Below, piece by piece: positions 5,037-8,940 of a stretch of 64,000 nt of DNA (position 1 is the first letter of the stretch; each line of letters begins with the position of its first letter). The translations under genes and the position numbers were made by a program. The DNA is from Methanolobus bombayensis (lineage in GTDB: Archaea > Halobacteriota > Methanosarcinia > Methanosarcinales > Methanosarcinaceae), in assembly GCF_017873415.1 (NCBI RefSeq), contig NZ_JAGGKD010000005.1, forward strand, positions 186,001-250,000, given 5' to 3'. The notes beneath the pieces are model-generated. The model was not told the DNA's origin. It ran no database searches and saw nothing but the letters and a program-made list of their open reading frames with translations.

Positions 5037-6851
5037 TCACACCGCATCCTCTAGTTGCAGTCTTGGAGCTACACCAAGGGATTTGATTTCGTCAAGCAGC
5101 AGTTTGAATGCATAACTCATCTCTACAGGGTGGATGTCAGTCTCAGCACCACAGTTGGCGCAGTATCTTATGTTTCTCTTCCTGTCAAATGTTGCTATCA
5201 TTCCGCAGTGTCCGCAGACAAGTTCTACTACCTTGTCAGATTCATCAAGCAGTCTTTCCTTCAGTGTCATTGCAGCACCGTGGCCAATAAGCACATCACG
5301 CTCCATTTCACCGAAACGCAGACCTCCTTCACGGGCACGACCTTCGGTTGGTTGTCTTGTAAGCACCTGTACTGGTCCACGGGATCTTGCGTGCATCTTT
5401 GATGCTACCATATGGTGCAGTTTCTGGTAAAGGATAACTCCTACAAACACATCTGCCTGTATCTTCTTTCCTGTTACACCATCAAAGAAGACTTCCTTTC
5501 CTGTATGTGCAAATCCGTGTGTTTTGAGAGCTGCACGAAGATCGTCTTCATTTTCCCCGGAGAATGCAGTTGCATTAACTCTCCTTCCTTCCATTGACCC
5601 AACCTTTCCACCGATCATCTCAAGCACGTGACCTACAGTCATACGTGAAGGAATTGCGTGTGGATTGATTACAAGGTCAGGAACCATTCCTTTTTCTGTA
5701 AATGGCATGTCAGCAAAAGGCACTATAAGTCCGATAACTCCTTTCTGACCGTGTCTTGATGCGAACTTGTCGCCGATCTCAGGGATTCTCTGGTCTCTTA
5801 TCTTTACTTTTGCAAGGCGTGTACCGTTAATTGATTCTGTAAGAATTACTGTGTCAACGACTCCTTTCTCGTTGGAACGCATTGTGATAGCACTTTCTCT
5901 GCGCTGCTCAACGGTAATTCCGAAATCGGACTGTTCTTCAAGGAAACGTGGCGGACTTGTCTTTCCGATAAGTACGTCATTTGGACCTACCCTTGTTTCA
6001 GGGTTCACAAGACCGTCTACATCAAGATTTGCGTATGCTTCAGGGCTACGCGCACCTCTGAACTCGGAGTCAGGAATCTCGAATTTATCTTCCTGTCCGC
6101 CAGGATAACGTCTTTCCTCACCCTCGAATGTCCTGAGGAAATGACTTCTTCCAAGCCCTCTCTCAATTGAACCTTTATTGAAAACCAGTGCATCTTCAAT
6201 ATTGTGACCTTCGTAGGACATAACAGCTACAACGAAGTTCTGTCCGGCCGGCCTGTCATCGAAATGAATTGCTTCACAGGTCTGTGTTCTGACCATTGCC
6301 CTCTGCGGGTAGTGAAGTATGTGTGCACGTGTGTCCGGTCTTAGCTTGGTATTGGATGTTGAAACACCGATACACTGCTTGACCATGGCTGCACCCATTG
6401 TGTTACGTGGGGATGCATTGTGTTCCGGATATGGTACCATTCCTGTACATATTCCCAGCATAAGTCCCGGGTTGATTTCCAGATGGGTGTGTTTCTCTGT
6501 AATATCGTCTTTGTAAAGGGCAATGAATGCATTCTCTTCTTCTTCTGAGTCAAGGTATTCTATTTTTCCTGCTTTTGTCATTTCAGAATAGGGAATTTTG
6601 CCTTCTGCAAGAAGCTCTATCTCTTCTTCTGATATCAGGGCTTCTCCATTCTTTACAATTATCAGCGGCCTTCTAGCACGACCCATGTCAGTATTGATCA
6701 GCACTTCATGTATGTCTTCATAAAATGTTACATTGATCTGGTCAGAGATCATTCCTGATCTGCGTTGCTCTCTCAGGTCCTCTACCAGCTCTGCAGGGTC
6801 TGTGTGTGTTCCCACTAATTCTCCATTAAGGAAAACTTTAGCTTCATTCAT
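5037..6851 (-). CDS. rpoB1: DNA-directed RNA polymerase subunit B'
   Basis: About 604 residues; C-terminal half of the second largest subunit, split as in methanogens. It contains [10 protein letters not shown], the [21 protein letters not shown] segment, [13 protein letters not shown] and a C-terminal zinc ribbon ([23 protein letters not shown]). The reading frame opens at 6872, but the ATG at 6851 ([12 protein letters not shown]) is preferred because a GGGAGG Shine-Dalgarno sits 9 bases before it; this start overlaps the end of rpoB'' by 8 bases, which suggests translational coupling. Confidence 0.96.
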
Positions 6852-8502
6852 CGAGAAGGCCTCCCATATCATCTAATGATTCAGAATAATTCGTATACCC
6901 GATAGGTTCTGATTTTTTCTCTTGATCTTCTTCTACTGTTGTTATATTTTTCACTTCTATCTCTTCCAGATAGTCATCCAGTTCTTCGTCATATTCAGGA
7001 AGCGCTTTCAGTGAAGAGTTAAGGACAGCCTTTACTACACCAAGGTCGTAGAGTACGTTCTTTATCATCTTCTCATCGTCTGTTCCTGTTGAAAGCTCTA
7101 CCATTTGTGCAAAGTTTTTCACAAGACCACAGTTAGGACCTTCAGGAGTTTCTGACGGACAAAGCCTTCCCCATTGTGTGGGGTGCAGGTCACGGGCTTC
7201 GAAGTGTGGCTGTGCTCTTGAAAGTGGGGAAATTACACGACGCAGGTGTGAAAGTGTGGATATGTAATCTGTCCTGTCAAGCAACTGTGAAACACCGGTT
7301 CTGCCGCCTACCCAGTTACCTGTTGCAAGTGGGTGCTGAAGCCTGTCTGTGAGTACATCTGCTCTGACAAGCGTGATAACATTGAGCTCACGGTTCCTCA
7401 TGTTTGCTCTTTCAAGCTGGTATTTGATATCTCTTGAGAGCCTGTTAAAAGCTACCCTGAAGAGATCTTCCATAAGGTCCCCGGTAAGTTTGAGTCTCTT
7501 GTTTGAGTAATGGTCCTTATCATCAGGAGTACGCCTTCCAAGTGCCAGTTCGAAACATGATTCGGCCATTCTTCCAAGGAAATTGGCCTTTGCGGCCCTG
7601 TCATGAGGTTCATTCCCAAGGTGCGGTAAAAGATATCTGTCAATTACATAGTTCGCACGTTTGATCTGGTAGTCCCTCGCCTGTCCGGAAGCGACCCTTG
7701 AACCGATCTTCTCCATCGCATCTTCGATGTTGTCGACCTCTGCTTCCTCAAGATTCTCGAACATGAACTTCATAATCTCCGGATCAGTGGATACAGCTTT
7801 TACAAGCTCTTCGTCAGTCTCCACACCCAGCGCCCTCATGAGTGTGATAAAGTTGAGACGTCCGGAAATGGATGGGAATGAAACTTCCAGAAGTGATTTT
7901 CTACCTCTTTCTACAACCACTAATGCCCTGTATCCTCTTCTCTGAGAGAATACTTTTGAAACCTCTATGGTGTCTCCGTATCTCTCTCCGAATTCTGTGA
8001 GGATCTTGTTTGGAGCAAGGTCTTCCAGAGTCATGACCACACGCTCTGTTCCGTTGATTATGAAATATCCTCCCGGATCAAGCGGGTCTTCTCCGAATTT
8101 GACCATCTCTTCCTCCTGGATCTCGGTGAGGTTACATATGTCTGATTTGATCATGACCGGAAGCTGACCTATTTTTGCTTCCTGTGGCTCTTTTTCTTCA
8201 TCATTCTCGACAACACTCATCTGCAGGTAGAGTGGTGCGGAATAAGAAAGGTTCCTGAGCCTTGCTTCATTAGGATATAGATTTTCTATAGCTCCGTCCG
8301 CTTCCTTGACAACGGGATTTTCAACACGGATATTGCCCAGTTTGATATATGTGTCTTCAAGATCTGTCTCGATGATCTTCTGTTCATCGATTATCTTTTG
8401 AAGACCTGTCTCCAGAAACTTGTTATAGGAATCTATGTGATGCTGTACGATCTTGTCTTTCGTGAAAAACGAACGTGGGATCTGTCCTTTGGTTAACGCT
8501 AT
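6844..8502 (-). CDS. rpoB2: DNA-directed RNA polymerase subunit B'' (non-canonical start)
   Basis: N-terminal half of the second largest polymerase subunit, about 552 residues. The body contains [13 protein letters not shown], the fork region [18 protein letters not shown] and [21 protein letters not shown]. The first in-frame ATG is at 8220, but the open frame extends upstream through clearly conserved residues ([20 protein letters not shown] ..., then [13 protein letters not shown]), so that ATG is internal. The frame is closed by TAA at about 8535-8537 and has no ATG, GTG or TTG before 8220. The best start is AUA at 8502-8500, five bases after an AGGTG Shine-Dalgarno; AUC at 8505-8503 is the alternative. 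The product is certain, the initiation codon is inference. Confidence 0.93.
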
Positions 8503-8514
8503 GATAGCACCTTC
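8500..8514 (-). promoter_or_regulatory. Shine-Dalgarno and putative AUA start of rpoB''
   Basis: On the minus strand the bases read GAAGGTG, a five-base spacer, then ATA GCG TTA. AGGTG pairs with the CACCU of the archaeal 16S 3' end, and the spacing matches that of mcrA (GGTG plus six bases). No canonical start exists in this frame, and in the other two frames the nearby GTG and TTG run into stops within a few codons. This site decides the start of rpoB''. Confidence 0.6.
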
Positions 8515-8573
8515 TTTATATGGTTTGTATTATTGCAAAAAAGCCCTTGTATGATTAATGTGAAGATCGCGTT

Positions 8574-8810
8574 TTAAGCGATCACAAGTCGATAGTAAAA
8601 TGCTTCGCCGGCGGTCTGGCTGTTACGGGTTATCTTAACGACATCTCCAACCTGTGCCCCAATTTCCTGAATAACGGGATCAACAACCTTTATCTTAGGT
8701 AGTTGTTCCTTTTCTATGGCAAATTGCTTTAAAACAGATTTAAGTTCATCTTCCAACATTATCTCATGTTTAGGGATCAACTGGTGGTCGAGCAGGCTAA
8801 ATTTTCTCAA
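8574..8810 (-). CDS. rpoH: DNA-directed RNA polymerase subunit H (Rpb5-like)
   Basis: 78-residue archaeal RpoH, equal to the C-terminal assembly domain of eukaryotic Rpb5, which sits in the polymerase jaw. Recognised by DHQLIPKHEI near the N-terminus, the LPKI...DPVIQEIGAQVGDVVKI core and the FYYRLV ending. It begins with TTG at 8810, about nine bases after a strong GGGAGGAG Shine-Dalgarno. First protein gene of the polymerase operon; a 71-base spacer separates it from rpoB''. Confidence 0.95.
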   Translation of the reverse strand: MRKFSLLDHQLIPKHEIMLEDELKSVLKQFAIEKEQLPKIKVVDPVIQEIGAQVGDVVKITRNSQTAGEAFYYRLVIA

Positions 8811-8863: not shown

Positions 8864-8940
8864 TGGCGGGCTCGTAGGGATTTGAACCCTAGGCCGTCTG
8901 GTTAAAAGCCAGACGCTCTGCCTGACTGAGCTACGAGCCC
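8864..8940 (-). tRNA. tRNA-Lys (anticodon UUU)
   Basis: The minus strand folds into a full cloverleaf. The seven-base acceptor stem GGGCTCG (8940-8934) pairs with CGAGCCC (8874-8868), followed by discriminator G and an encoded CCA (8866-8864). The anticodon stem GTCTGG/CCAGAC closes a CTTTTAA loop with anticodon TTT, and the T arm carries GGTTCAAATCC. It lies about 55 bases upstream of rpoH on the same strand and could be cut from the same primary transcript. Confidence 0.97.

Follow-up and report, generated by a model that had tools for sequence, protein, structure and literature searches.

Conserved start codons other than AUG, GUG and UUG are known from bacteria, where initiation factor IF3 represses non-canonical starts, autoregulates its own gene infC (ATT or ATC), and keeps the expression of sigR (GTC) low (PMC5472188). 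Introduction of a canonical start in place of the sigR GTC results in overproduction of SigR (PMC5472188). infC, which begins with ATT in E. coli and with ATC in Streptomyces, is like rpoB'' of the Methanosarcinaceae an essential gene whose near-cognate AUH start is conserved. Nevertheless, infC encodes the fidelity factor, which controls its own synthesis, whereas the product of rpoB'' is a core subunit of the archaeal RNA polymerase. sigR of Streptomyces resembles rpoB'' in being a gene of the transcription machinery with a conserved non-canonical start, and a low expression level has been shown for it (PMC5472188). In contrast to rpoB'', sigR encodes a stress sigma factor of one bacterial genus, uses GUC, and is under a control established by experiment, while the control of rpoB'' is one that we infer from sequence.

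Non-AUG starts of chloroplasts are evolutionarily conserved and have been proposed to constitute a layer of translational control (PMC9845219); unlike rpoB'', they are organellar. Canonical starts in archaea are described, in the available part of a review, as being selected by Shine-Dalgarno (SD)-led initiation, as is the case here, with aIF1, aIF1A and aIF2, and AUG, GUG and UUG are listed (PMC7531240); no mention of AUH or CUG starts was found in that part. aIF1 of archaea destabilises initiation complexes on non-AUG mRNA (PMC6237735). No report of archaeal AUA, AUU, CUG or ATC starts was found in the open-licence literature, and such a report may exist in a subscription journal. The available part of a Ribo-seq study of M. 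mazei places rpoB/A among the genes with lowered ribosome signal under nitrogen limitation, and no discussion of the rpoB'' start was found in it (PMC11456600).

Reading frame and start region of rpoB''

The window analysed here is a stretch of 64,000 nucleotides from Methanolobus bombayensis, in which rpoB'' and its neighbours are arranged on the minus strand as follows.

5037..6872, minus strand: rpoB', with an ATG start, overlapping the end of rpoB''
6844..8502, minus strand: rpoB'' (RNA polymerase subunit B''), 552 codons counted from ATA
8500..8502, minus strand: probable initiator codon ATA of rpoB'', aligned with ATA, ATC or ATT in 100 of 107 Methanosarcinaceae species, at a gap of five bases from GGTG
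8508..8512, minus strand: Shine-Dalgarno sequence AGGTG of rpoB'', in a block nearly invariant in 26 Methanolobus species
8530..8532, minus strand: in-frame TAA closing the rpoB'' frame upstream
8574..8810, minus strand: rpoH, with a TTG start, directly upstream of rpoB''
8864..8940, minus strand: tRNA-Lys(UUU), upstream of rpoH (contig C5, 194864-194940)

We also note that the tRNA-Lys(UUU) gene lies directly upstream of rpoH-rpoB'', and that its processing might determine where the operon transcript begins.

Codon-by-codon reading of the rpoB'' frame from the TAA at 8532-8530 to the ATG at 8220, which is the earliest ATG in frame and lies 94 codons past ATA, reveals no ATG, GTG or TTG. The first-pass annotation had described rpoB'' as lacking these starts, and the reading bears this out; the upstream stop, which it had placed at 8535-8537, required correction, as 8535-8533 is CAA in frame, and the conclusion is unaffected. 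The AGGTG at 8512-8508 is separated by five bases (CTATC) from the ATA at 8502-8500, and rpoH begins with TTG at 8810, both as annotated. Translation from 8499 matches the Pfam families RNA_pol_Rpb2_1, RNA_pol_Rpb2_2 and RNA_pol_Rpb2_3, and from residue 6-9 on the protein can be aligned with the N-terminal regions of archaeal Rpo2/RpoB and eukaryotic RPB2 chains of known structure. Frame reading, Pfam and structure alignment thus agree with the annotation that the conserved N-terminus extends about 94 codons upstream of Met 8220. Since these residues match polymerase structures, a start at 8220 would remove part of the polymerase. The expected N-terminal peptide of RpoB'', after removal of Met before Ala, is ALETSILSQAYFTR, as read in loci of the G101/G103 type, and it is strain-dependent.

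A gene finder confined to ATG, GTG and TTG would pick 8220, and any annotation restricted to these codons must truncate rpoB''. Initiation further downstream, at the CTG at 8415 or the ATG at 8220, or a sequence error that conceals the true start, is nevertheless scarcely credible: the protein would lose 94 residues from the N-terminal region of Rpb2 that are present in archaeal and eukaryotic structures, inspection by eye reveals no SD ahead of the CTG at 8415, and the start region is of the same kind in about 100 independent genomes. The sequencing error restoring ATG or GTG, which had been named as a possible refutation, is thereby excluded. The sequence GTG CTA TCA TAG at 8510-8499 further offers a GTG inside the SD itself, from which ribosomes could either reach the rpoB'' frame by a -1 shift or read a minigene of three codons. 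This is highly improbable, as the GTG has neither an SD of its own at the normal distance nor a slippery sequence, is replaced by GGG in two genomes (G035 and G069), and is followed immediately by TAA in several genomes of genus g25, its codons not being conserved. Frameshift, minigene, downstream CTG or ATG, and sequencing error were all rejected on family comparison and structure alignment.

Start codon in the Methanosarcinaceae and outgroups

The start could be read in 107 Methanosarcinaceae species. In 100 of them ATH is the sole candidate codon or the first one (56 ATC, 33 ATA and 11 ATT), and ATG occurs at this position in none of the 107. The 100 ATH species are the 107 less six genomes of genus g25 and G130, the region being unreadable in G123; two of the 100, both of genus g5, have GTG directly after ATA. 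ATA is invariant in all 26 Methanolobus species, namely the genome of the window (G000) and 25 others, where the start block reads AAAGARGGTGCTATC-ATA-GC(G/T) and is nearly invariant; proteins of the window are up to 97% identical to those of genomes of the same genus (the named relatives being L032, L033 and L036). Methanosarcina, Methanococcoides and Methanohalophilus are examples of genera with ATC, and other genera have ATT or ATA. In the genera other than Methanolobus the ATH lies 11 codons before a conserved (Y/F)F(T/K), and a GGTG-like SD precedes it with similar spacing.

In 1.25 Mb of the M. bombayensis genome, a gap of five is the clear mode for GGTG before predicted canonical starts (51 of 132 GGTG sites), and the modal distance from GAGG to the start is seven bases. 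The occurrence of ATH at one place in 100 of 107 species, together with the modal GGTG gap, indicates that the ATA of rpoB'' did not arise by chance. The comparison shows a start of the AUH type that is conserved through the family and, as judged from the aligned genomes, is neither an error nor peculiar to this genome. The alignment of start codons across the family that had been suggested earlier therefore strongly supports the annotated AUA as the likely initiator. rpoB'' has no canonical start upstream of its conserved protein sequence, and its near-cognate codon stands at proper SD spacing and is kept across species, both of which are marks of a gene with a near-cognate start.

Departures from ATH are few. 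Genus g25 has a GTG about eight codons downstream with its own GAGG, and in two of its species (loci L143 and L149, genomes G093 and G091) a TAA interrupts the old ATC block; in G130 the ATH is lost and an in-frame GTG is present. As aligned here, the departures from AUH within the family offer GUG or have moved to it, not to AUG. None of the 107 species has ATG, yet g25 and two other departures do have GTG, which bears on the tolerance of rpoB'' for canonical starts in a comparison with sigR.

Outside the family, most outgroups in the order (L049-L060, L214-L221) have GTG, ATG or TTG one codon downstream of the ATH position; in outgroups including ANME-2, Methanoperedens and Methanothrix these starts stand where the family has its Ala codon. 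This is what would be expected if an ancestral GTG one codon downstream had been lost and AUH had taken over as a frozen accident under no present selection, and the ATA-GTG found side by side in genus g5 also suits such a transition. Such an accident is rather unlikely to be the explanation, given the behaviour of the third base of the start codon. A single substitution would give ATG in each of the 100 ATH species, and ATG is never seen, despite repeated changes of the third base: a quick tree gives about seven changes among A, C and T and none to G, the count being soft because the tree rests on a short alignment of 270 downstream bases. None of the ten internal ATN codons within the first 80 codons of Methanolobus rpoB'' is invariant, whereas the start ATA is; at 16 of the 19 silent A-ending sites one or more species have G, which the start ATA never has. 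The start codon of rpoB'' is thus apparently kept non-AUG by selection.

Probable initiation at AUA and proposed control of B'' synthesis

AUA appears to serve as an initiator elsewhere in Methanolobus. In leaders of the M. bombayensis genome that are in frame and without a canonical start, ATA is the sole codon clearly enriched at the SD-modal spacing, with 5 of 35 against a background of 4% (P 0.012); its enrichment at shifted spacings in these leaders is not significant. Two further genes, one encoding a PHP-domain protein (contig C5:131045, minus strand) and the other a corrinoid protein (C5:174595, plus strand), have an ATA start at a GGTG gap of five (loci L469-L500). In the PHP-domain gene (L469-L486), L477 has ATG at the SD-spaced position where others have ATA, and in the corrinoid-protein gene (L487-L500), the leader of which is otherwise poorly conserved, L491 likewise has ATG at the SD-spaced ATA position. 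Because ATA and ATG alternate at one SD-spaced position in two genes, AUA appears to be a functional initiator in Methanolobus. The two genes also suggest that the switch from ATA to ATG is reachable where it is tolerated, and the ATG seen in a relative of each stands against a frozen accident in rpoB''.

Conservation of the start block could alternatively reflect a control site in the RNA, bound by a protein or a small RNA, in which case the site, and not the weakness of the start, would hold the codon. From AAAGARGGTG to codon 3 almost all bases are invariant in the 26 Methanolobus species, silent positions included, and the genome contains the 11-mer GGTGCTATCAT at just two places, the second being a chance site on contig C19. 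Since conservation extends over the entire stretch between the SD and codon 3, a constraint on RNA sequence is inseparable here from one on start strength. Across genera, however, the spacer differs (CTATC, CTAGC, CTACC, CTAAC, TAATT), as does the third base of the codon, while the SD spacing and ATH stay; the fold of the leader RNA is moreover not unusual (z -0.75). An RNA site as the cause is accordingly improbable.

Our preferred reading is that translation of rpoB'' probably starts at AUA and that selection holds this start weak, with a limit on B'' synthesis as its presumed function. The AGGTG would set the AUA at 8502-8500 in the P site, where the ordinary initiator Met-tRNA most likely reads AUA, and AUC or AUU in sister genera, through a third-base mismatch. 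The weak start would be the selected property, keeping B'' production low and limiting, and how much B'' is made would depend on the stringency of aIF1 and aIF1A against near-cognate codons. Synthesis of RNA polymerase may thereby be tied to the state of the translation machinery, as IF3 does with infC and sigR. To our knowledge, archaea lack IF3. A dedicated AUA-reading initiator tRNA was also considered; a scan of 1.65 Mb, roughly half the genome, showed none, and such a tRNA would leave AUC and AUU in the sister genera unexplained.

The first-pass annotation had compared a role in limiting synthesis with infC. The apparent selection against AUG, the departures to GTG and the sigR precedent strengthen the limiting role, which stays conjectural. 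Strict autoregulation of the infC type is inapplicable because RpoB'' is not an initiation factor: its Pfam matches identify it as RNA polymerase subunit B'' and not as an initiation fidelity factor. rpoB'' would therefore behave like sigR and not like infC. The apparent retention of a non-AUG start on a core polymerase subunit throughout an archaeal family suggests that polymerase dosage is controlled at initiation, and Methanosarcina genetics would permit a test of weak-start control in rpoB'' and aIF1A.

Other candidate non-canonical starts

About 1,460 predicted genes, from about half of the genome, were scanned for coding frames without a canonical start; the scan, blind to short start-less leaders, yielded a handful. 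The gene for aIF1A (G000 contig C2:157140, plus strand) has a CTG start seven bases after GAGG (loci L335-L364, L380-L384, L410-L438), and its earliest canonical codon in the window's genome falls within the conserved protein core. The CTG is kept in nearly all Methanosarcinaceae copies read and also occurs in other families, both outgroups within the order and several more distant ones in the phylum; it is replaced by TTG in family f17 and in one paralogue (L365), and by ATG in L369. radB (contig C1:263980, minus strand) has ATA in 24 of 24 Methanolobus species (loci L305-L328, L385-L409) and, among the loci listed with a start region, in 22 of 22 from Methanosarcina, where the GGTG gap is longer. 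The gene for a Csl4-like exosome subunit (contig C1:194727, plus strand; loci L439-L468) has ATT seven bases after GAGG in 27 of 27 loci among those listed with a start region, and it appears to start at a conserved AUU.

aIF1A with its CUG start is a possible archaeal counterpart of infC, which would provide archaea with a counterpart of the IF3/infC feedback. Tentatively, and with more doubt than confidence, these genes may form a weak-start regulon of the Methanosarcinales under the archaeal initiation factors, in which aIF1A (CUG, with infC-like feedback), rpoB'' (AUH), radB (AUA) and the Csl4-like exosome gene (AUU) would respond to one shared stringency. If this is true, one translational signal would set the capacity for transcription, RNA decay and DNA repair.

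Two further frames of the same genome were noted. A gene for an FAD-dependent oxidoreductase (contig C1:10900, plus strand) has no canonical start for more than 30 codons and has a candidate ATT after GGAGTGATACT. A gene that we take to resemble CbiG (contig C1:151736, plus strand) has a candidate ATA start after GGGAGGTCTTACTT.
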